From: Synechococcales cyanobacterium S06
Lineage (GTDB): Bacteria; Cyanobacteriota; Cyanobacteriia; Cyanobacteriales; JAABRE01
Assembly: GCA_011391125.1 (NCBI GenBank)
Contig: JAABRE010000009.1
Span: 1-64,000, forward strand
Direction of reading: 5' to 3'
Length of the DNA: 64,000 nucleotides
Below the pieces are notes generated by a model. The model saw only the letters and a program-made list of their open reading frames with translations. It did no database searches and had not been told where the DNA came from. Positions within the stretch are counted from its first letter, which is position 1. Every line of letters starts with the position of its first letter. Shown here one piece after another: positions 30,263 to 41,492 of this stretch. The translations under genes were made by a program, and so were the position numbers.

Positions 30263-30264
30263 TT

Positions 30265-30781
30265 ATGGAAGGTTATTTATTAGATACCAATAGACTTCTT
30301 GCAGAAGTCAGGTAATAGGTAATAGGTAATAGGTAATAGGTAAAGAAATTGACGCTTATGAGAGGAAAATTGATTTTATTCTTAGTTTCGCAAGAGGTCT
30401 AATATTGTCACCGAATTTGTGAAGCAAAATCCTGAAATTCTGGCTAAAGCTGATTTATGCAAGCAACAAGAGCAACCTATTTATATTAGTGTCATGACCT
30501 ATTATGAAATTTATCGTGGTTTAATTGCTGTTAATGCTACTCGTAAATTACAAATCTTTGAAATGGTCATTAAAAAATACCAAATTTTACCTTTAGATGA
30601 GATTAATTTGTTACAAATTGCGGGTAATATTTATGCTGATTTGAAACGACGAGGTAAAATAATTCAAGATGCTGATATTTTAATTGCTGCTACGGGAATT
30701 TATTATAATTTAATTGTCGTTTCTAATGATTCTGATCTCCACAGAATTAAGGGTTTAAATTCGGAAAATTGGTTATCTTAA
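30265..30781 (+). pseudogene. VapC-like PIN-domain toxin gene, disrupted by insertion
   Basis: The gene starts MEGYLLDTN, typical of a PIN ribonuclease, then runs into a 109-bp inserted element and a stop. The rest (30404-30781) continues IVTEFVKQNPEILAKADL and holds later PIN features: VMTYYEIYRGL, IIQDADILIAATG and VVSNDSDLHRI. Deleting the element plus one AAT copy (112 bp) rejoins DTN to IVTEF in frame and gives a normal 134-residue protein. The insertion length is not a multiple of three, so the toxin must be inactive. PIN toxins of this type cleave tRNA or rRNA. Confidence 0.88.
30292..30400. mobile_element. Family C miniature element inside the PIN gene
   Basis: This 109-bp element has ends AGACTTCTTGC and GCAAGAGGTCT (one mismatch as inverted repeats) and is flanked by a direct AAT duplication (30289-30291 and 30401-30403). 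Its interior holds four AGGTAAT heptamers, and its left end a GACTTCT-tgc-AGAAGTC hairpin. It has no coding capacity. Confidence 0.85.
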
Positions 30782-30880: not shown

Positions 30881-33523
30881 TTATTCCCATTCTTTTTGCC
30901 AACCTTGACAGGAATTTTCGTCACAATTAGGGGTAATTAAGATCGCGGTATTTTGAAGGCGATCGCTTCCTTGAAATGTAATTTCACCAGACATTCCGTC
31001 AAATTTATTGTTAGGATTAACTAAGTATTTTTGTAGTTTGGAACTGCTTAATGGTGGTTTTATTTGCGATAAAGCATCAAGCAATACTTTTGTGGAATCA
31101 TAATCGATAACTTGTCGGACTATTTCTTCATTTAATAAATTGTTACCCCAAAATTTCTTTAACTCATTTATTTGTTTTCTCTGATTTTGATTTATCTTTT
31201 CAGAATAATCTGACCAAGGGACAGAAATGACAATATTTTTAGCAATATTAGTATTTTCTGTATGAATTGATTCTTCATAAAGAGTCATAACGTTACCAGT
31301 TCCGATTAAAAATTTGCCGTTATTTTCTTTAATTATATCTTTAGTATTGCTAATTTCCAAGCTGGTGGCAGAATTATTAGTAAAAGCATCTGGACATAAA
31401 ATAAGTGCTATTTTTTCCTTTCTCTTTTTTAAGTTTTCAAGGATTGATTTTATGTCAATTTTTTCTTCCAAGTTATAGGTTTTTATAACAGAATGTTTTG
31501 ACCAATTTTTTTCAAATTCTTGTTTAAAAGAAAGGCTAAAAATTTTTTCTGAATAAAATATAACAACTTTTTGATAGCCTTTATTTTGTAAATATTGAGC
31601 TAAAAGTTGAGTTTGGTCTTTATTAGTAGAAACCACCCTAAAAAAGTAAGTTTGTTGACTGGTATCTGTTAAGGTTAATTTCTGATTATTTTTTAAAGTT
31701 ACTTCATTGGCGGTACTAGCAAATGACATTAATACTAATTGGGCCTTTTTATAAGTATCTTTGGTATTAATCGTAGCTCTTGAACTATAATGACCTATTA
31801 CTCCATAAAGTTTTCGTTTAACAAGTTCTTTAGCGATATACTGTGCTATTCCTTCGGTTTTGTTATCTCCGACATTGTTTTCATCATTAGCAACTAAAAT
31901 CAAAACTTGATTTTGGTTATTATTTTCGTTAAATTCTTTTTGTTTATATCCGATTCCTTTTAGGGTATGTTTACTGACTTGATCTGGACCGTCTTTTTGT
32001 TTTGTGATAGGAATAACGACGGCCAAAGGGATTACTTGATTTTGGTTAATTTTTCCGAGTTTAAGTTTTTGTAAAACTTGTGCATTATTTAAAAAGATCA
32101 ATGTTTCCCCATCTTTATTATTATCAAATGATGTTTGTAAAGACTTAATTGCTTGATCAAAATTTTTATTGGCAAATTCTTCTATTCCTTTTCTCTTATT
32201 TAGCTCTGTTGGTGGAGTTTTCATTAATGATTTTTCACCACAGGATAATAACCGATTTTCTGGTGTTAATTTACAGGTTTCAATTAATTGAATTGGTTTT
32301 CGATATGTATAAATTAAGAAAATAATTAAGAGTGTAATTATTAGTAATAAACTGAATCTAAGAGGTTTTTTGTACTTTTTAAAGAAGTTTTTAAGCTTAT
32401 TCAAAAAAGTAGGATTATCTGGCTTGTTTCCCTGTAACATTTCCCAAGTTAATATCGGTATAGCTGCATTTTTACATAACAAAGGTAGCCAACTTGCTAG
32501 GGGAAATTCATCTTCTAAACCCTGTAATCTTTCTCTTGCTTCCCGCAAAGCTAAAGGTAATGATTCTCTCTGAAAAGCATTAAGAAAATACCTGATAAAA
32601 TTAGCAGCTACCTCATTAGGGACTTTTTCTCTAAAAACAATAACTCGTGGTACTTTATATTGTAGCGCTGTTTTAGCTAAACCAATTCCATCACAAGAGT
32701 TAAAAATTAATAATTGTAAACCATTTTTAGTAGCTTCTCTTAACCCTTTTTCTAATAAATTAATGCTTATTCTTTCCTTTGGATTAATTTGTATAGTACC
32801 ACCTTTACCATGTCCGGCAAAAAAGATAACAGACCATCCTTTTTTATCCCATAATTTCTCATTAATATTCTTTAAATTTGTTTCATTTTTTGGTATAACA
32901 ACTAATTCTATAGATGATTCGTTTTCTAATTCTTTTAATACTTCTTTATGTTTTTCTAAATCAAGATCGTTTGTTTCACCAAAAATAGCTAAAATTCTTA
33001 TTTTATCTCTCTGATAATTTCTGATCAAAGGATGAATGAACTGTAAATTGCTCAAAATCAACTCAGCAGCTTCAAAAGTTTCAAAAAAATCCCATAAGTG
33101 TAAAGGTAAACGAGCTAATTGTTGATCATCGGTTTCAATTATCAATAAAATCTCATCATTCCTATTAAAATAAGTCAGGATTTGTCTATTAATTGACGCA
33201 AATTCTGGTGAATGTAACCAGGTGTTAATTGTCTCTTTTAATGTCTCACAAAGAGTATCAAAATCTGTTAACGAGATATTGGTAAATCCTGTAGGATCAA
33301 TAGTTATTTCAAGTGATGGTTGTCGAGTTATTTGCAATAAACTTTCATAGAATATTTGCCATTCTTTATAAACATTAAATACTGTGTTTGCTGATGGTAA
33401 TTTTCCTATCACTTGTGCTGGTGGTTGATGAAGTTTTTGTAAACGAGCCGTTACGTCATAAGTAATATCACCATTTAGTGAATTTTGGACAAAGGAAAGA
33501 ACAGCAGAACAATTCATGGGCAA
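30881..33523 (-). CDS. CHAT-protease domain fused to a periplasmic ligand-binding receptor domain
   Basis: This 880-residue protein has an N-terminal CHAT (caspase-like) peptidase region (about 100-350) with catalytic His238 in FFAGHG and Cys277 in FNSCDG. A single membrane segment (about 389-405) follows a basic KKYKK stretch, which places the N-terminus in the cytoplasm. The C-terminal part (about 490-880) looks like a type 1 periplasmic-binding (Leu/Ile/Val receptor) fold, with IPLAVVIPI, GVIGHYSS, KKAQLVLMSFASTANE and DGMSGEITFQGSDR. The architecture suggests that an external ligand controls an internal protease. It is the last gene of a likely operon with the DUF1822 and sigma-like genes. 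Ligand and protease target are unknown. Confidence 0.8.
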   Translation of the reverse strand: MPMNCSAVLSFVQNSLNGDITYDVTARLQKLHQPPAQVIGKLPSANTVFNVYKEWQIFYESLLQITRQPSLEITIDPTGFTNISLTDFDTLCETLKETINTWLHSPEFASINRQILTYFNRNDEILLIIETDDQQLARLPLHLWDFFETFEAAELILSNLQFIHPLIRNYQRDKIRILAIFGETNDLDLEKHKEVLKELENESSIELVVIPKNETNLKNINEKLWDKKGWSVIFFAGHGKGGTIQINPKERISINLLEKGLREATKNGLQLLIFNSCDGIGLAKTALQYKVPRVIVFREKVPNEVAANFIRYFLNAFQRESLPLALREARERLQGLEDEFPLASWLPLLCKNAAIPILTWEMLQGNKPDNPTFLNKLKNFFKKYKKPLRFSLLLIITLLIIFLIYTYRKPIQLIETCKLTPENRLLSCGEKSLMKTPPTELNKRKGIEEFANKNFDQAIKSLQTSFDNNKDGETLIFLNNAQVLQKLKLGKINQNQVIPLAVVIPITKQKDGPDQVSKHTLKGIGYKQKEFNENNNQNQVLILVANDENNVGDNKTEGIAQYIAKELVKRKLYGVIGHYSSRATINTKDTYKKAQLVLMSFASTANEVTLKNNQKLTLTDTSQQTYFFRVVSTNKDQTQLLAQYLQNKGYQKVVIFYSEKIFSLSFKQEFEKNWSKHSVIKTYNLEEKIDIKSILENLKKRKEKIALILCPDAFTNNSATSLEISNTKDIIKENNGKFLIGTGNVMTLYEESIHTENTNIAKNIVISVPWSDYSEKINQNQRKQINELKKFWGNNLLNEEIVRQVIDYDSTKVLLDALSQIKPPLSSSKLQKYLVNPNNKFDGMSGEITFQGSDRLQNTAILITPNCDENSCQGWQKEWE

Positions 33524-33582
33524 TAACGTTAAATATAGGGATGATTCCTAAATTTAACGTATATTGAACCTATTTCGACTGT

Positions 33583-34785
33583 TTAGATACAAAACTTTTC
33601 ACTAATAGTTACTCCTTCTAGGCTAATTTCAATCTTAAATTCATCTCCATTGTCACAGGAAAACTGACGCAATTGAATATAATTATTATGGAATCTTGAA
33701 GTCACTGTTTGTAATTTTTCTCCTGAAATTAAACACAAACTTACACTTAAATTATTCGGTAAATAAATGTTATTACCAAATGGATGAACTTGCAATGAAA
33801 TATTATATCTTCCTTTACTATCAGTAAGTATTATTAATAGTAAAACAACGGATTTTTCACCTATTTCTAGTTGTAAATTAAGTAACTTAGCGCGACTAAT
33901 TGGATTATTAATAGTTGCCGTTGACATTATTGGCTCTCTTGGCAAATAATCACTTCTTAATAACCACCCTAATTCGATCGCTTGATCTAGCTTGTTTTCT
34001 AGCCAGTCTCTTAGATTAGTTCGCTTTGAAGCTAACTGATAATTAACTCTTTGGTGATATAATTTGGTTAACCATTTTTCATTATTTAATAAGGCAGCCC
34101 ACTGAGAAAAATTAACATCTAAACGGGGAGAATAACGGGAAACTTCACTTAATTGTGTGATTAATTTTTGGGCGGTTTCTGTTGATAACTCTGGTAAAGA
34201 TTGCAGTTCTCCCTTTTCTTCACACAATTCCAGAGCCGAGTAAAGTAAATCAAGATCGTAAATGATGTTATCGACACTAACAAAATATTCTCGAAAAGTC
34301 GGGTCAAAATCCGCCGTTTTTTTCACCGTTTCTCGCGAAACAAATCCCCAAATATGCAGATATTTTTCCTCTGATTCTAACTCTAATTGTACGGGTAAAT
34401 AGTAATCTCCTGCCCAATTGGGAATATCAACCCATTCTTGGGGAATGGTAAATTCTTCGGTGTCGATCGCCTCACTAGGGATTAAAATTAAACGTTTAGA
34501 ATTCCCATTTTCTGAGAAATTAATCGTAATTGAACTGCCATTCACAAATTCCCAAGTTTCAGGCTTAGTAGCACATAAGTTGACATTTGTCAAGCCTAAC
34601 TTTTGTTCAATCCAGGGAACAAAAACAGAGGTAACTAAACTATTAAGATAGCAATTATGTTTACCTGTTTGATTAGAGTAATTTTTAGTAGCTAATTGGG
34701 CATTTGTCAAGTCAGAATCGCTAATTTTAAGCCAAATATGTTCAGAATCAAGATTAGTTAAAGTTTCAAAAGATCGGGTATTCAT
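33583..34785 (-). CDS. DUF1822 family protein
   Basis: This 400-residue protein resembles cyanobacterial DUF1822 proteins, with HNCYLNSLVTSVFVPWIEQ near the N-terminus, TWEFVNGSSITI and the beta-rich VDIPNWAGDYYLPVQLELES. The C-terminal 110 residues look like a beta-sandwich (LNLQLEIGEKSVVLLLIILT onward). The function is unknown. It lies 59 bases upstream of the CHAT-receptor gene on the same strand, so the two are probably co-transcribed. A repeat tract of TTATCAG lies just upstream. Confidence 0.75.
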   Translation of the reverse strand: MNTRSFETLTNLDSEHIWLKISDSDLTNAQLATKNYSNQTGKHNCYLNSLVTSVFVPWIEQKLGLTNVNLCATKPETWEFVNGSSITINFSENGNSKRLILIPSEAIDTEEFTIPQEWVDIPNWAGDYYLPVQLELESEEKYLHIWGFVSRETVKKTADFDPTFREYFVSVDNIIYDLDLLYSALELCEEKGELQSLPELSTETAQKLITQLSEVSRYSPRLDVNFSQWAALLNNEKWLTKLYHQRVNYQLASKRTNLRDWLENKLDQAIELGWLLRSDYLPREPIMSTATINNPISRAKLLNLQLEIGEKSVVLLLIILTDSKGRYNISLQVHPFGNNIYLPNNLSVSLCLISGEKLQTVTSRFHNNYIQLRQFSCDNGDEFKIEISLEGVTISEKFCI

Positions 34786-34861
34786 GGAAAAATTGCTCCT
34801 AGTTTATTGATAATATTAAATTGCGATGTTCTTTGCTGTTTTATGCGTAAAAAAGGTCATT

Positions 34862-34894
34862 TCAGTTATCAGTTATCAGTTATCAGTTATCAGT
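34862..34894. repeat. TTATCAG heptamer tract
   Basis: About four exact TTATCAG units lie in the 208-bp gap between the sigma-like gene and the DUF1822 gene. Confidence 0.75.
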
Positions 34895-34993
34895 TTTTCT
34901 CCGTCACCAAGCAGGAGGAAACCTAAAAAAGACTTATTCTTCTTATTTTTTACTTTTTAAAAAGGCTCGGATATCTTACACAGCTTTCCTTGG

Positions 34994-36238
34994 TCAAATT
35001 TTCTGATAAAACTGTAATATTTCCCTGATTAATTCTCTTAATTTTGACCTAGCAATTTCTGTGAAACTTTCGAGGTGAAAATTATCTTGTATTTGTGTTG
35101 CAATATAATCGGTATTACTAATTTCTGAACTATGGTTGTTCAAAGTAAGTTGTTGGATTTTGCGATCGTAAAAATCCCTCATACTTTCCTTCAAATATTG
35201 CAATTGTTCAGAAGTGGGTTTAGGTTTAATTTTCTGAGAATTATGGGGGTGAAAAGAGTGGAAAATTTGTTGATAAATAAATGTTCCTAGACGAGAAACC
35301 GTTGATTGATTAATTCCCAATTCTTTTGCTGTTTTTATCTGCCCAAATTTTAAAGCAAAATTATAAAAGGCAATTTCTTTTTGTTTGGTTTCAAAATTAG
35401 TTAATATCTGATTAATAAACTGTGTTAACATTTGTATTTCTTCCAAATACGTATCATCTTCAACTACATTATTAGGACTAGGAATAACGTCTATTAAAGG
35501 AGATTCTTTTTTTTGCTGAAACCAAGATTGATCAAGGGAAATCAAGGGAGGATTATCCACTAATTCTCTAATTTTTTTCCCGACAAAATCGAGTATATCT
35601 TTAACATTTTCTCCTGTCAGGGGAGTCTTATTTTGGCTTAATTTATTAAACTCATTAGCAATTTCTTGAAAGTCATTATCTATCCATTTATTACAGGGTG
35701 AATTAACCTGACTAGATTTTTTTACACATCCACACAAAATAGAATACTGCTCAATTTCAAGGGAATTGCTGGCTACTTCTAACCATCGTTTCCGAGTTGA
35801 ACGGACTGCCACACCGCGATCAGTAATACTAAAATTTGGCATAAGATATTTCCTAATCTGCTTACGAAAGCAGTCTTTGATCATAAAATTAGAAGGAATT
35901 TTAAACTTATATTTTTCCTGTTCAAAAAACCGGCAATGTAAAAGATCATAAGTGAGATCAAACAAATAGGCTAATTCATATTTTATTAAATAACCAGAGA
36001 ATCGCTGGTATTCTTTTCTCACAACTATTACGCAACGATTCATTAAGTAACATTGCCAAACCCTGATTAATTGCTTATTTTTTGGGTTAATTATTAACTC
36101 TTTTAATAAATGGGAGTGTAAACGTGAGGAGTGAATTTCCTCACCCATATTGTCAATATAATTTCGTAAGCTTATTTCTTCTCGGTATCTGACGCAATTT
36201 CCTTCTATTCTAGGTCGGGTGTAAAATATTTGGATCAT
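34994..36238 (-). CDS. Sigma-70-like or HTH regulatory protein
   Basis: This 414-residue, Lys/Asn-rich protein has a helix-turn-helix near residues 300-330 (KTAKELGINQSTVSRL) after a long helical part, an arrangement recalling region 4 of sigma factors. Clear region 2 motifs are not seen, so sigma activity is uncertain. I think similar proteins accompany DUF1822 and CHAT genes in other cyanobacteria, but this is recollection, not tested. It heads the three-gene unit at 30.9-36.2 kb and may control it. Confidence 0.55.
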   Translation of the reverse strand: MIQIFYTRPRIEGNCVRYREEISLRNYIDNMGEEIHSSRLHSHLLKELIINPKNKQLIRVWQCYLMNRCVIVVRKEYQRFSGYLIKYELAYLFDLTYDLLHCRFFEQEKYKFKIPSNFMIKDCFRKQIRKYLMPNFSITDRGVAVRSTRKRWLEVASNSLEIEQYSILCGCVKKSSQVNSPCNKWIDNDFQEIANEFNKLSQNKTPLTGENVKDILDFVGKKIRELVDNPPLISLDQSWFQQKKESPLIDVIPSPNNVVEDDTYLEEIQMLTQFINQILTNFETKQKEIAFYNFALKFGQIKTAKELGINQSTVSRLGTFIYQQIFHSFHPHNSQKIKPKPTSEQLQYLKESMRDFYDRKIQQLTLNNHSSEISNTDYIATQIQDNFHLESFTEIARSKLRELIREILQFYQKI

Positions 36239-36315: not shown

Positions 36316-36346
36316 AAAAAGGACTTCCGAAATAACTCGAAAGTCC
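36316..36346 (-). terminator. Rho-independent terminator of the RTX gene
   Basis: On the minus strand GGACTTTCGA pairs with TCGGAAGTCC (one mismatch, six-base loop), followed by five T. It separates the RTX gene from the sigma-like gene. Confidence 0.8.
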
Positions 36347-36388
36347 CACAAAAAAAGGAGTAAATTTTAGGTCACGAATCTGAACCAA

Positions 36389-39300
36389 TTAAACGACCTG
36401 AAAATCAGCGTTTGTAAGGGCTAAACCACTGTTTAAAGTAGCAAATTGAACTACCGTAAAGGAATTACCAATTCCATCTTTATCGAAGAAGACAGCACCT
36501 GTTGAACTGTTATAGATAAAGCGATGATCAGCAGTTGTCGCTTTACTTCCTGTAACAAAAGCCGTTGTAGGTAAAGTTCCAGCAGTTAAACCACCAAAAC
36601 CTGTTCCTGAAATGAGCAAAGTATCATCAATGACTGAAAAATCAGTGATTTTATCTTTTCCTTCGGTGCTACTATTAAAACGGAAACTATCCTTACCTGC
36701 ACCTCCAGTTAAAACATCATTGCCAACACCGCCAATCAAGGTATCGTTGCCGTTTCCTCCTAAAAGGGTATCCAAACCAGCTCCTCCAGTCAAGTTGTCA
36801 TTACCGTTATTCCCTGTAAGGGTATTGTTACTTGAATTACCGGTGAGAAGATCGTTGTAATTTGAGCCAATCAAGTTTTCGATCGCCACCAGAATATCGC
36901 CATTAGCTTCACCTAAAGAACCAAGATTGGTAGTTAAATTAACGGTAACAGCAGAGGTAGCACTACTGTAACTTGCGGTATCAGCTCCTAAACCACCGTC
37001 TAAAGAATCAATACCCAAACCACCGGTTAAAACGTCATTGCCAGCATCACCAATAAGGGTATCATTGCCGGAAGAACCGCTTAAATTGTCATTTCCTGCA
37101 CCACCATTGAGGATATTAATGCCATTATTGCCGGTTAAATTGTCGTTTAAGGTGCTTCCAGTAAGATTTTCGATGGAAATGAGGCGATCGCCCAAAGCCT
37201 CTCCAGTGCCTAGATTAGTGGTTAAATTAAAGGTGACGGACGAAGTTGCGGTTGCATAGCTTGCCGTGTCAATCCCTGCTCCACCGTCTAAAGTATCAGC
37301 TCCTAAACCGCCAATTAGGGTATCATTGCCGGAAGAACCGTTTAAGTTGTTGTTAGCGTCATCGACTTTGAGGGAATCTGCCAACTGTGAGCCAATGATA
37401 TTCGAGAAATTCTCCACAGTAAACGAAAGAGTACCTTGGGGAGTATTGAAAACCGTTAAACTATTACTAGCGAGGTCAACATTTAAAGAGCTAGTGGTAC
37501 TGGTACTAGAATCAATAGCGTTGAGATAGTCAGAATTACCAACAATTCTTTCAGCAGAAACCGTATCAATTCCCAACTCTCCTTTATCAATAATACCTGC
37601 GGGTTTGAGGGTAATTGCTGTGGTTAAATTGCTGTAATCGACGGTATCAACACCAACTCCCCCTGTGATTGTATCATTGGCCAAACTTGCGAAGAACAAA
37701 TCATCTCCACCTTGACCATCAAGACTATTATTACCCTCATCACCAATGATGAGATCATCAGTTTGACTACCAGTTACATTAGCGAAGTTAACCACCGTAA
37801 AGGTGACATCCCCAGATGGCAAACCAATCACCGTCAAAGTGTTTTGGGACAAATCAATATTAATTGGGGTTGTGGAACTAGAAGAAGCATCAATCAGATT
37901 GCTAGATGAACCATTAGCAACAATCTGCTCCACTTGGACAGTATCAGTTTCACCATTAGCTTTAAAAATAATACCTTGTACTTGTAAGGTAATGGCGCTA
38001 TCCACGAAACTGTAATCAACTGTGTCAATACCTTCACCACCAACGATTGTATCATTGGCCAAACTTGCGAAGAACAAATCATCTCCACCTTGACCATCCA
38101 AACTATTTATCCCCTCATTCCCTGTGATCTGGTCGGCTAATTGGCTACCTTCAACATTGTTAAAGTTATAAACATCAAAAGTGACATCACCTAAGATCAA
38201 GAAACTAGCTGCGAGGTTCACATCAACAGCATTAGTCAAGCTGTCCGAAGCATCAATGGTGTTAACAAAGGCGGAATTAGCGATGATGATTTCAATGGAT
38301 TGAAGTGTATCTGTTCCTAAAGCGCCCTTATCAACGATTCCTTCAGCTTTCAAGGCGATCGCCCCTGAGAGATTGCTATAATCTACAATGTCAATTCCGT
38401 CTTGACCATTAATACTAAAGCTGCCAATAGTGACAATCAAGTCATTATCTTCTGGAGTTCCCTCTAAGACTAAGTCATTATTAAATACTTGGGCATAAAT
38501 TCCGTAAGTTGCTTGATCAGTCCATGTGATAACATAACCGCCATCAGATAATGCTGTTGTTGCCGAGAGAAATTGACGATCTTGTGTATTATTGGTATTA
38601 ACTAAAAATTCTTCCCCAACTAAATTACCATTACTATCAAGTCGTTGTGCGTAAATATCTTCATAGCTACTATTAGAGGGGGTAGATTGCCATGTAATCA
38701 AGGTATCTCCATTGGCTAACAATGTAGCTGAAGGTTCATACTGCCAACCAGTGGTAGTGGTATTGACCCGAAAGGCCGAACCTACAGCCTCCCCATTGCT
38801 GGCATATTTTTGTCCATAAATATCAACACCATCAATAGATGAATGCCAAAGGACTATAAAACCACCATTACTTAATGGAGCTATTGTAGATGGTTTAATC
38901 TGTGCAACGCCGTTGCCTAGGTTAATTTGAGCAGAAGAAGTGACAACAAACTCACTACCAACAGGATTACTATTGGCATCAAATCGTTGTCCACGAATAG
39001 CATTATCAAAATAACTGTTTCCCCAAGTAATAACGAATCCTCCATTAGTCAATGATACCACTGACGCATTTTCTCGATAACCGGAGGCTGAACTATTAAG
39101 ACGAAATTCACCGCCCCTAGGATTGCCATTAACATCATATTTTTGACCATAAAGTCCAAAAATTGGTTGATCAGACCCAAAACCACCTTGATCATTGTAT
39201 GACCAAGTCGCCAGAAAGCCACCATCAGTTAAACTAATGACTGATGCATCATTTAAACGAGATGTGGTGCTAGTATTAGCTTGAAATTGAGTGCCAAGAG

Positions 39301-39592
39301 GATTGCCATTACTATCATAGCGTTGTCCATAAACTCCGCCGCCCGAACCATTAGTCCATGTAACGACAAAACCATCATTTTTTAGACCTGTAACAGAGAG
39401 TGAGCTACCCTCGTTGATTTGATTTGTATTAATTTTGAACTGGCTGGTGGAAGGTGAGCCATTCTTGTTATAAACTTGTGCAAAAATATCTGGACCAGAT
39501 TGCCAAGTAACAAGAAAACCATCTCCATTAGCTAAAGTTGCCGTTTTAGAAACTGAACCATTCGCCACTCGAAATTCGTTAATATTACTCAT
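36389..39592 (-). CDS. RTX-type calcium-binding secreted protein
   Basis: This 1067-residue protein has two halves. The N-terminal half (about 1-390) is made of roughly eight repeats like GGFVVTW...IYGQRYDSNGNPLG. The C-terminal half has nonapeptide calcium-binding repeats of the GGxGxDxLx type (for example GGAGNDNLSGSSGNDTLIG) and ends in an uncleaved hydrophobic tail TNADFQVV, as in type I-secreted RTX proteins. No N-terminal signal peptide fits that route. The start is placed at ATG 39592 (MSNINEFRVANGS); an upstream ATG at 39715 would add an unrelated 41 residues. No protease, lipase or toxin domain is recognised. Confidence 0.88.
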   Translation of the reverse strand: MSNINEFRVANGSVSKTATLANGDGFLVTWQSGPDIFAQVYNKNGSPSTSQFKINTNQINEGSSLSVTGLKNDGFVVTWTNGSGGGVYGQRYDSNGNPLGTQFQANTSTTSRLNDASVISLTDGGFLATWSYNDQGGFGSDQPIFGLYGQKYDVNGNPRGGEFRLNSSASGYRENASVVSLTNGGFVITWGNSYFDNAIRGQRFDANSNPVGSEFVVTSSAQINLGNGVAQIKPSTIAPLSNGGFIVLWHSSIDGVDIYGQKYASNGEAVGSAFRVNTTTTGWQYEPSATLLANGDTLITWQSTPSNSSYEDIYAQRLDSNGNLVGEEFLVNTNNTQDRQFLSATTALSDGGYVITWTDQATYGIYAQVFNNDLVLEGTPEDNDLIVTIGSFSINGQDGIDIVDYSNLSGAIALKAEGIVDKGALGTDTLQSIEIIIANSAFVNTIDASDSLTNAVDVNLAASFLILGDVTFDVYNFNNVEGSQLADQITGNEGINSLDGQGGDDLFFASLANDTIVGGEGIDTVDYSFVDSAITLQVQGIIFKANGETDTVQVEQIVANGSSSNLIDASSSSTTPINIDLSQNTLTVIGLPSGDVTFTVVNFANVTGSQTDDLIIGDEGNNSLDGQGGDDLFFASLANDTITGGVGVDTVDYSNLTTAITLKPAGIIDKGELGIDTVSAERIVGNSDYLNAIDSSTSTTSSLNVDLASNSLTVFNTPQGTLSFTVENFSNIIGSQLADSLKVDDANNNLNGSSGNDTLIGGLGADTLDGGAGIDTASYATATSSVTFNLTTNLGTGEALGDRLISIENLTGSTLNDNLTGNNGINILNGGAGNDNLSGSSGNDTLIGDAGNDVLTGGLGIDSLDGGLGADTASYSSATSAVTVNLTTNLGSLGEANGDILVAIENLIGSNYNDLLTGNSSNNTLTGNNGNDNLTGGAGLDTLLGGNGNDTLIGGVGNDVLTGGAGKDSFRFNSSTEGKDKITDFSVIDDTLLISGTGFGGLTAGTLPTTAFVTGSKATTADHRFIYNSSTGAVFFDKDGIGNSFTVVQFATLNSGLALTNADFQVV

Positions 39593-39817
39593 GTTGATTA
39601 TTGTACTCAAAAAAGTTGTTATTTTTTGCTTGAGCGTTTCTATAGAAACTATTGCGCGGGGTTTTGTAAGATTATGAATCAACAAAAAACTTTTTTTTTG
39701 ATTCAGCTTTTCCAATTTATCCCACTGAATACTTCAACGTGGTTCGTGGTTGGACTAAAGTCCCAAGAAAAGCTCGTTTTGGCAATAAATCACAACTACA
39801 AATTTTCCTAAGAGAAT

Positions 39818-40082: not shown

Positions 40083-41492
40083 TTAACCACCACCACCACC
40101 ACCACCACCACAGGAAGGTTTGGGGGGAACTTTCGGTGTCGGGTAAATAATCTGTAGTTCTAAGTCCAAAAATTCGCTTAATTCTTTGCCAATCCACCAA
40201 AATTCGGCTGCTGTTAAATTGGCGATCGAGTATTTATTTGAACCTGCATAGATGAATAATTCAGGCTCGATTTTGACTTTCCCTCTGTTTTCTACCTTAC
40301 CTGTGCTATCAAGATATTTGTCAAATTCGTAACTGGGGGAATATCCTAACAAGGAAATTTCTGAACGAGGGTTATTTAATACTCTGAATCCCAATGTGTT
40401 ATAAGCTTCTATTTGGTTAGGGTTAATGATGATTTTTGCTAATATTTCCCTATGCTTCATGACTTGCCATCCAAAAAAGAAAAGAAGGAAAATTGGAAAT
40501 AAGGAACCAAAAAATAAGAAACCAAAAAATAAAGGGATTAAAGTTGAAAATATAGCATCTCCTAACAGTTTGATGATATAACTGATAGATATAGTCCCGA
40601 ATATTATCTCCAATCGATCGCCTTCACCTTGCCATTTTACCTTGGTATATTTCGGTTTAAGTTCCGGATAATTACTAATATTACCATCGCTAGATATTAG
40701 AGCAGTTTGTGCTATTTTAGCATCACTAAAACGGCGATCTAAATGATGTTGTATCATTTTATCTAACCATTTTTGAAACCGGTTACTTAACTGATTTGTC
40801 TTAAATTTAATTTGTCCATTAACTAAAGGTAATTCGGCGGGATGAGTACCTGTAACCAGATAAATTAGGGTCATTCCTAAACTATATAAATCCGAAGCAG
40901 GAACAGCTTGACCGCCAAATTGTTCTAGGGGAATATAGCCATAACTTCCCACAATGGTAATTGTACCTCCTTCTTTATTGGCAACGGTTTGAACCGAACC
41001 AAAGTCCACTAAATAAATGTCACCAATACTATTACCAGAACGATTACTTAGCAAAATATTACTAGGTTTAATATCTCGGTGAATAACGATGGGATTTTGC
41101 CCATGAAGATACTGTAAAATTTGTAAAAGGCGAGCGGCTAATTCCACTAATTCTGCTTCGGAAAACTTACGACCTTGTTGAATCCAAGTATCCAAAGAAA
41201 CCGCTTCAATATAAGTTTGTACCAAAGCAAAACCATGATAATTATTATCATTAACTTCAAAGTAGTCTAAATATTTAGGAATGGCAGGATGAGCGAGATT
41301 TTGTAAGGTTTTCGCTTCTCTTTCAAATAATTTGAGATCATCCCACTGAAAATCTTGGTCAAAAAGTAAAATTTTAATTACGACTACATTTTTAGAAAAC
41401 AAATCTTCGGCCAAAAAAGTCCTTCGGCCAGCTTTTTTGCTTAGTTGTTCCCCAAGTTGATAGCGATTATTTAATACAATATTATTGTCCAT
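40083..41492 (-). CDS. Membrane-associated Ser/Thr protein kinase with Cys-polyGly tail
   Basis: This 469-residue protein has an N-terminal Hanks-type kinase domain (about 10-265) with VIHRDIKPSNILL and the DFG motif YLVDFGSVQTV; the Gly-rich loop is poor. Two hydrophobic segments follow (about 300-345), then a domain of about 110 residues and a tail KPSC followed by eight glycines. Cys/Gly-rich tails of this sort are known at the end of some cyanobacterial membrane proteins, and here the next gene on the strand is a GRDP-like gene, whose family name comes from a glycine-rich domain. The tail is encoded by GGT repeats, so its length may vary by slippage. Confidence 0.85.
   Translation of the reverse strand: MDNNIVLNNRYQLGEQLSKKAGRRTFLAEDLFSKNVVVIKILLFDQDFQWDDLKLFEREAKTLQNLAHPAIPKYLDYFEVNDNNYHGFALVQTYIEAVSLDTWIQQGRKFSEAELVELAARLLQILQYLHGQNPIVIHRDIKPSNILLSNRSGNSIGDIYLVDFGSVQTVANKEGGTITIVGSYGYIPLEQFGGQAVPASDLYSLGMTLIYLVTGTHPAELPLVNGQIKFKTNQLSNRFQKWLDKMIQHHLDRRFSDAKIAQTALISSDGNISNYPELKPKYTKVKWQGEGDRLEIIFGTISISYIIKLLGDAIFSTLIPLFFGFLFFGSLFPIFLLFFFGWQVMKHREILAKIIINPNQIEAYNTLGFRVLNNPRSEISLLGYSPSYEFDKYLDSTGKVENRGKVKIEPELFIYAGSNKYSIANLTAAEFWWIGKELSEFLDLELQIIYPTPKVPPKPSCGGGGGGGG

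Follow-up and report, generated by a model that had tools for sequence, protein, structure and literature searches.

What does a cyanobacterial locus do that places a sigma-like protein, a DUF1822 protein and a transmembrane CHAT protease with a ligand receptor side by side? This question arises in Synechococcales cyanobacterium S06 (hereafter S06) on contig JAABRE010000009.1, of which positions 1 to 64,000 were analyzed (the window). The initial annotation had proposed an undescribed sensing system, in which proteolysis of DUF1822 or the sigma-like partner would be under the control of an external solute, and named a conflict-type function as another option. The three open reading frames are indeed intact. 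All are encoded on the minus strand, where the sigma-like protein comes first, followed by DUF1822 and the receptor protease (CHAT-PBP; Table 1). The listed start codon of the CHAT-PBP gene is TTG; translation more likely starts from the ATG at 33517, two codons further in. Since the 208-nt gap between the sigma and DUF1822 genes is unusually wide for a family with a median of 9.5 nt, co-transcription is less sure in S06 than in its relatives. An RTX gene was rejected as the first gene of the operon, given the strong terminator between this gene and the sigma gene.

Table 1 Features of the sigma-DUF1822-CHAT locus (positions in the window)
Feature	Position	Strand	Basis or remark
Intrinsic terminator after RTX gene	36320..36347	-	12-bp stem, then T run
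Divergent sigma-70-family protein, 414 aa, "large" class of DUF1822-linked sigma factors	34994..36238	-	
Region-2-like stretch, divergent, residues about 57-135	35834..36070	-	Alignment to family HMMs; 8b3z
Region-4-like HTH, residues about 270-325	35264..35431	-	Pfam Cro 288-316; sigma models 233-325
Tandem heptamer TCAGTTA x4.9 in the sigma-DUF1822 spacer	34862..34895	.	
DUF1822 protein, 400 aa, proposed sigma-to-protease adaptor	33583..34785	-	Pfam E 4e-72
DUF1822 N-terminal alpha/beta domain, residues 1-250	34036..34785	-	Covaries with sigma
DUF1822 low-confidence linker, residues 251-294	33904..34035	-	Covariation signal steps over here
DUF1822 C-terminal Ig-like beta-sandwich, residues 295-400	33586..33903	-	Covaries with CHAT protein N-module
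N-module-CHAT-TM-TPR-like-PBP receptor protease, 880 aa	30881..33523	-	
N-terminal alpha+beta domain, residues 1-165	33029..33523	-	AF2 model
CHAT peptidase domain, residues about 166-360	32444..33028	-	Pfam CHAT; invariant GH...NSCDG
Predicted catalytic His238 codon	32810..32812	-	Invariant column
Predicted catalytic Cys277 codon	32693..32695	-	Invariant column
Single TM helix 388-406, preceded by KNFFKKYKKPLR	32306..32362	-	Hydropathy; model helix 387-406
Type I periplasmic-binding domain (ANF receptor / LIV-binding), residues 493-880	30884..32047	-	Pfam, PDB profile search

In the receptor protease, Pfam CHAT matches residues 208–335 (E 3e-8; 33.9 bits against a cut-off of 24), and the proposed His238/Cys277 dyad was confirmed, with both residues invariant in 16 relatives; the loop after the catalytic His is shortened in the S06 protein. 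An N-terminal alpha+beta domain stands directly before the caspase-superfamily domain (AF2 model, Pfam CHAT) and is kept together with CHAT across cyanobacterial genomes. This N-module corresponds to EACC2 by its described architecture and neighbours, rather than by a sequence profile. The single membrane helix expected from the initial annotation was found at residues 388–406, and the positive-inside rule would place the N-terminus in the cytoplasm. Between the helix and the receptor lies a helical TPR-like stretch (about residues 441–488). Structure prediction also bore out the periplasmic-binding fold suspected at the C-terminus, which is two-lobed and of the Leu-binding-protein type: Pfam ANF_receptor matches residues 556–857 (E 9e-15), and the predicted structure of residues 493–880 superimposes on 4mlc with a VIA Z of 34.6 (rmsd 2.5 over 325 residues). 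This region thus shares its fold with Leu/Ile/Val-binding type I periplasmic binding proteins (4mlc/4q6b) but, unlike free ABC-transporter subunits, it is part of a membrane receptor protease.

The sigma-like protein is strongly diverged, with 9–27% identity to its relatives and matches below cut-off to sigma-70 models (TIGR02980 3e-6, TIGR02937 2e-5). It aligns over its full length to the HMM of the DUF1822-linked sigma family, which includes the S06 sequence itself. The profile of this family matches region 4 of FliA/SigF with an E of 5e-10 and, weakly, the sigma region-2 chain 8b3z (E 0.007), the corresponding S06 region being divergent. Judged via the family profile, the S06 protein therefore probably carries the region 4 HTH of the sigma-70 family. 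A kinship of this type of sigma factor to that of type III-E CRISPR systems was considered and rejected: the respective model NF041236 matched 5/25 relatives, which a control search attributed to generic ECF similarity. In that model's search of 194 genomes, S06 included, 181 gave matches and none exceeded the cut-off.

For DUF1822, the AF2 model (mean pLDDT 86) predicts an alpha/beta N-domain and an Ig-like C-terminal sandwich, with pLDDT values of 48–68 across residues 251–310. To model the protein in this way, and not as a TPR protein, is new here and disagrees with Kaur et al. (PMC8195603), who call DUF1822 a TPR protein in their brief mention of it. No Foldseek match was obtained at E<=0.001. 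The C-terminal sandwich gave middling fold matches, with Z values of 6.5 at most, and a match of residues 43–191 to a SPARDA chain (Z 6.3) was discarded as below the noise level of 8. Neither Csx30 nor any known anti-sigma factor was matched in sequence or fold when PDB profile and fold searches were run. A conserved Arg in the linker was rejected as the CHAT cleavage site, because it is also present in pairs without a CHAT neighbour and is absent from S06 and its nearest relative; hence, no CHAT-specific cleavage signature was found.

A search of gene neighbourhoods showed that the arrangement is strongly conserved in cyanobacteria, as the initial annotation would predict: DUF1822 is located upstream in 59/70 CHAT loci and a sigma factor in 56/70. 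Within the sampled loci, 119 of 129 DUF1822 genes directly follow a sigma factor gene of the same strand. When the sample was centred on DUF1822, sigma was found upstream in 33/37 cases and CHAT downstream in 12/37, which marks sigma and DUF1822 as the core pair and CHAT as an optional input. Pairs without CHAT exist and are found beside housekeeping genes. DUF1822 is present in 139/149 genomes of the same order, and the CHAT-PBP query matches 285/390 sampled cyanobacterial genomes, a count that also includes stand-alone receptor homologues. The C-terminal sensors of CHAT relatives (n = 16) vary between CHASE2 (12/16), PBP (2), nSTAND1 (2) and GUN4 (1); the receptor version recurs but is in the minority, and CHASE2 is commoner.

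The system is, however, not undescribed, since Kaur et al. 2021 (eLife, PMC8195603) report the same neighbourhood in one sentence as "EACC2-caspase + ECF sigma + DUF1822" with variable C-terminal sensors. The S06 locus resembles these systems in its constant N-terminal alpha+beta domain followed by a caspase-superfamily domain, in a C-terminal sensor drawn from a variable set that includes extracellular small-molecule receptors, and in the adjacent ECF sigma and DUF1822 genes; it differs in that their passage on these neighbourhoods names CHASE2 and not a periplasmic-binding receptor. For exactly these neighbourhoods the passage proposes autopeptidase activation and gives DUF1822 no role (PMC8195603). 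Accordingly, a stimulus might trigger self-cleavage of the constant EACC2-caspase part and thereby release the variable C-terminus or cause cell death, with the sigma factor as an additional output. The high variability of the C-terminal parts (CHASE2, nSTAND, GUN4, PBP) is indeed reminiscent of the conflict systems of Kaur et al. However, a small-solute receptor would be an unlikely sensor of invaders, and the sigma-DUF1822 pair is near-constant and also occurs beside housekeeping genes where CHAT is missing. In addition, the anti-phage defence models of PADLOC gave 0 matches for all three S06 proteins, and the genes often found downstream (DUF928, TPS secretion) are not toxins. Nothing at the S06 locus was found to favour self-destruction, and we consider such a function unlikely.

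An indication of how the three proteins may be connected came from their covariation. A DUF1822 tree of 92 triads shows one change of sigma class (large or small), compared to a mean of 31 after shuffling, and 10 changes in the C-terminal type of CHAT; the CHAT tree shows 9 changes of sigma class. Distances within the DUF1822 N-domain track those of sigma (rho 0.78 and 0.55 within the classes), but not those of CHAT across classes (-0.02). In contrast, distances within the C-sandwich follow those of the CHAT N-module (0.58 across classes; 0/300 permutations) and hardly those of sigma (0.03). The switch is a step at residues about 225–275, at the domain boundary, with a roughly flat signal on either side. 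This split covariation holds after thinning to 59 triads and also in CHASE2-type triads alone (0.39, p 0.002). The partition of DUF1822 into an N-domain that covaries with sigma and a C-sandwich that covaries with the first domain of CHAT, with a step at the boundary, is new here and points to two domain pairs, namely N-domain/sigma and C-sandwich/CHAT N-module.

Because the DUF1822 gene sits between those of sigma and CHAT, similar covariation could also arise from nothing more than linkage and recombination. The genes would then have been co-inherited with breakpoints inside DUF1822, whose C-domain need not contact CHAT. The gene order (sigma, DUF1822 N, DUF1822 C, CHAT) suits this explanation, as does the drop of the correlation with the sandwich along the CHAT gene from 0.58 to 0.14, which partly resembles distance decay. 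Plain distance, however, does not predict a step at the domain boundary that is flat on either side, and we consider an origin by linkage only less likely than not.

Altogether, we favour a ligand-gated, membrane-anchored signalling chain ending in the sigma factor, with DUF1822 as adaptor, and assign it a probability of roughly one half. Judging by the comparison, DUF1822 is probably what joins protease and sigma factor, and we infer that it bridges the sigma factor and the membrane-anchored CHAT protease. In such a chain, the LIV-binding-like domain outside the cytoplasmic membrane would bind a small solute, which is probably an amino acid or a related compound, and binding would be relayed via the TPR-like stem and the membrane helix to the cytoplasmic, caspase-like CHAT peptidase. 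The N-domain of DUF1822 may hold the sigma factor, while its C-terminal sandwich may dock on the EACC2-like first domain of the CHAT protein. Once activated, the peptidase would cut DUF1822, or itself, and so break the tether; the freed sigma factor, presumably inhibited by DUF1822 until then, could transcribe a regulon of its own. The covariation evidence agrees with the originally suggested, hypothetical route that leads from an external solute via DUF1822 proteolysis to a response in transcription.

Covariation gives the coupling of DUF1822 and sigma, but not its sign. DUF1822 might instead act as a positive co-factor or membrane recruiter of sigma, with CHAT as a non-cleaving or DUF1822-degrading shut-off switch, and CHAT-less pairs would be in line with this. 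However, the sign in the Craspase precedent is inhibitory, and the catalytic dyad is intact and invariant; we regard a positive role as improbable. A further caveat to the signalling chain is the divergence of the S06 copy, seen in sigma identity, the shortened post-His loop and the wide sigma-DUF1822 gap. Together with the tandem repeat in the spacer, these features could mark a decaying member of the family, with frames still intact but sigma and CHAT diverged and signalling lost. Yet none of the three frames is interrupted, the catalytic, TM and receptor parts are preserved, and the close relative L149 (Hydrococcus) retains the architecture with two tandem receptor copies, which makes decay an improbable explanation as well.

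Beyond S06, and more tentatively than the chain itself, DUF1822 might found a class of modular protease-gated sigma adaptors, in which a sigma-holding N-domain is combined with a swappable sandwich matching the N-module of a receptor-caspase. In that case, many pathways from a receptor-caspase to a sigma factor would operate side by side in cyanobacteria, as a counterpart of Craspase signalling without CRISPR.

Fusions of this kind have precedents: a caspase-ANF_receptor and a metacaspase-CHASE2 protein were reported by Asplund-Samuelsson et al. in 2012 (PMC3501461). These cyanobacterial proteins likewise fuse a caspase-fold protease to an extracellular receptor across the membrane, but they contain a metacaspase rather than CHAT, are represented by a single sequence per architecture, and come with no mention of a DUF1822 link (PMC3501461). 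A literature search found no published experimental function for CHAT-PBP or DUF1822. In the RseA/sigma-E system, an envelope signal leads to proteolysis of the sigma partner. In that system, it is the sigma partner that crosses the membrane, and the proteases are proteins of their own, whereas in S06 the protease itself carries the receptor. This regulated proteolysis has been discussed as a parallel to Craspase (PMC10028731). Like the S06 locus, Craspase combines a CHAT protease and an ECF-like sigma factor with an intermediary. In Craspase, the CHAT protease Csx29 cleaves Csx30, whose N-terminal domain binds CASP-sigma and whose C-terminal domain is cut; full-length Csx30 inhibits CASP-sigma (PMC10028731). 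Craspase is RNA-guided and cytosolic, whereas the S06 protease is a predicted membrane receptor. Furthermore, the S06 sigma factor falls below the NF041236 cut-off for the CASP-sigma family, and DUF1822 has no detected homology to Csx30, a kinship that the fold search does not exclude. By analogy to Csx29/Csx30/CASP-sigma in type III-E CRISPR, we infer that ligand-triggered proteolysis may free the sigma factor. If so, bacteria would possess a general route from an external solute to transcription via a caspase-like protease, and the logic of Csx29, Csx30 and sigma would not be special to CRISPR.

The source genome of the window is cyanobacterial (4.8 Mb, 168 contigs). The three-gene set proposed in the initial annotation was borne out: all genes are intact ORFs, Pfam recognizes DUF1822 as well as CHAT (residues 208–335) and ANF_receptor/Peripla_BP_6 (556–857) in the CHAT protein with a periplasmic-binding receptor (CHAT-PBP), and the sigma-like protein aligns with a sigma family. 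The spacer between the sigma-like and DUF1822 genes is unusually wide and carries a heptamer repeat, and a strong terminator closes the RTX gene ahead of the sigma gene. Besides that, the window encodes a PIN-domain protein; no antitoxin-like ORF of at least 30 aa was found directly upstream (30263–30418), and the gene could be VapC-like and either truncated or orphan.

Features of the triad and its surroundings in the window
Feature	Position	Strand	Remarks
PIN-domain protein	30419–30781		GTG start; Pfam E 7e-9
CHAT-PBP protein	30881–33523	-	intact ORF, 880 aa
DUF1822 protein	33583–34785	-	intact ORF, 400 aa; Pfam E 4e-72
Heptamer repeat	34862–34895		TCAGTTA × 4.9
Sigma-like protein	34994–36238	-	intact ORF, 414 aa
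RTX-repeat protein, large	36389–39715	-	upstream of sigma gene
Ser/Thr kinase	40083–41492	-	upstream of sigma gene

The sigma-like protein matches several sigma-70 models (1e-6 to 1e-2), each time under the curated cut-off. It can be aligned end to end with the sigma family preceding DUF1822 at other loci, but the window sequence was included in building that HMM, which makes the E-value circular. The family profile hits region 4 of FliA and SigF with E-values as low as 5e-10 and has a weak match to a region-2 chain; TIGR02937 (sigma-70 family) is matched by 20/25 proteins encoded upstream of DUF1822. Two sigma classes occur in triads, a large (~390–550 aa) and a small one (~210–260 aa).

In the CHAT-PBP protein, His238 and Cys277 are unchanged throughout 16 aligned relatives. 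Hydropathy shows a single membrane helix (388–406) preceded by a basic stretch, which places the protease probably on the cytoplasmic side and the C-terminus outside. The AlphaFold2 model (19 sequences, mean pLDDT 82) consists of an alpha+beta N-domain, the CHAT region, the membrane helix, three TPR-like helices (441–488) and a two-lobed domain (493–880). As had been anticipated, the latter is predicted to adopt a periplasmic-binding fold, matching the leucine-binding ABC substrate-binding protein 4mlc/4q6b (Z 34.6, rmsd 2.5, 325 residues) and supported by Foldseek (E 5e-18) and profile searches (5e-32). This part is widespread in cyanobacteria, both free-standing (~480 aa) and inside longer proteins, making it a mobile sensor module. 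The window CHAT domain has no Ser-rich loop following its catalytic His; the copy is a divergent member, possibly of reduced function.

Next, we analyzed the neighbourhood using 80 named loci retrieved with the CHAT-PBP profile. Among the 70 whose upstream sequence spans at least about 2.8 kb, same-strand upstream genes encode DUF1822 in 59 and a sigma factor in 56, so that the arrangement is conserved; both are present at 16/19 receptor-type loci, a type whose share is inflated by the receptor-type query. In a DUF1822-centred sample, sigma lies upstream in 33/37 and CHAT downstream in 12/37. Many CHAT-less sigma-DUF1822 pairs (relatives' loci L050, L052–L068 and others) sit beside housekeeping genes such as argJ and argS. 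The genome itself holds another triad, whose CHAT protein is of CHASE2 type (contig C99), and a sigma-DUF1822 pair without CHAT (C76). The CHAT query matched 285/390 cyanobacterial genomes, weak matches possibly reflecting the receptor part alone. The C-terminal sensor is mostly CHASE2 (12/16), otherwise nSTAND, GUN4 or PBP, and receptor-type proteins are in the minority. The nearest relative of the window triad, in Hydrococcus sp. Prado102 (L149), has two tandem receptor-CHAT genes; L149–L152 share this layout of one sigma-DUF1822 pair followed by duplicate CHAT-PBP genes, through which a single sigma factor may respond to two ligands. At L156, L157 and L158, the receptor-type triad is directly preceded by a gene for a free-standing periplasmic-binding protein. 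At L125, CHAT-PBP is broken into two frames (164 and 799 aa), which may reflect pseudogenization or a sequencing error. Directly downstream of CHAT, 32 of the 46 loci tested among L149–L228 encode DUF928 and another 3 a TPS-domain secreted protein; this extended operon is absent from the part of the Kaur et al. text available to us. Unlike many relatives, the window lacks both downstream, and therefore its regulon may differ.

The system had initially been considered possibly undescribed, but the neighbourhood already appears in Kaur et al. 2021 (PMC8195603). There, a constant alpha+beta domain ("EACC2") is joined to a caspase domain in one protein, and the C-termini vary, extracellular small-molecule receptors among them; most such neighbourhoods without TRADD-N encode ECF sigma and DUF1822, and autopeptidase activation with transcription as one output is proposed. 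An earlier paper from 2012 (PMC3501461) reports a metacaspase-ANF_receptor architecture. Our literature search found no experimental study of DUF1822 or of the triad system. The system is real, conserved and interesting, and as a neighbourhood it was known; new here are a structural correction of DUF1822 and its split covariation, which together yield a specific adaptor model open to testing.

The AlphaFold2 model of DUF1822 (54 sequences, mean pLDDT 86) places an alpha/beta N-domain up to residue ~250 and an Ig-like beta-sandwich at 295–400, with a poorly ordered linker joining them; this is at odds with the published label of a TPR protein. This label perhaps stems from a HEAT- or TPR-like helical insert (DEETRWxAAESLWxIDPxNP) in the linker of some relatives. 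Profile and fold searches gave no convincing PDB chain match, and no CHAT-specific cleavage motif was found in DUF1822.

On trees from 92 complete triads, sigma class switches once along DUF1822 (31 in shuffles) and nine times along the CHAT module; the DUF1822 tree needs 10 changes for the C-terminal type of the CHAT protein. Splitting DUF1822 gave one sigma-class change on the N-domain tree versus nine on the sandwich tree. Across sigma classes, sandwich distances track the CHAT N-terminal module (rho 0.58, 0/300 permutations), whereas N-domain distances do not (-0.02); within the classes, correlation to sigma is 0.78 and 0.55 for the N-domain versus 0.25 and 0.21 for the sandwich. The switch persists in 59 divergent triads, where the sandwich follows CHAT-protein residues 1–165 (0.46) more closely than the CHAT core (0.14), and in CHASE2-type triads alone (0.39, p 0.002). 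DUF1822 is the middle gene of the three, and operon recombination alone could therefore make each of its halves covary with whichever gene is closer. In sliding windows, however, the partner switch is a step at residues ~225–275, about flat on both sides, which speaks against plain distance decay, though not against domain-bounded recombination.

The simplest reading of this covariation is that DUF1822 acts as a two-faced adaptor, whose N-domain would carry sigma and whose sandwich would carry the first domain of the CHAT protein. Combined with an intact protease and a receptor, such an adaptor suggests a chain in which an external solute would activate CHAT, which would then cut DUF1822, or itself and thereby break the tether, to set sigma free; in this chain, the ligand, the cleavage step and DUF1822's inhibitory role are inferred. 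A signal of the III-E CRISPR sigma model proved generic when tested and was rejected. Sequence kinship with type III-E CRISPR is not demonstrable, but the logic is alike: there, the CHAT protease Csx29 cleaves Csx30, a protein that binds CASP-sigma through its N-terminal domain and, in its uncut form, inhibits it (PMC10028731).
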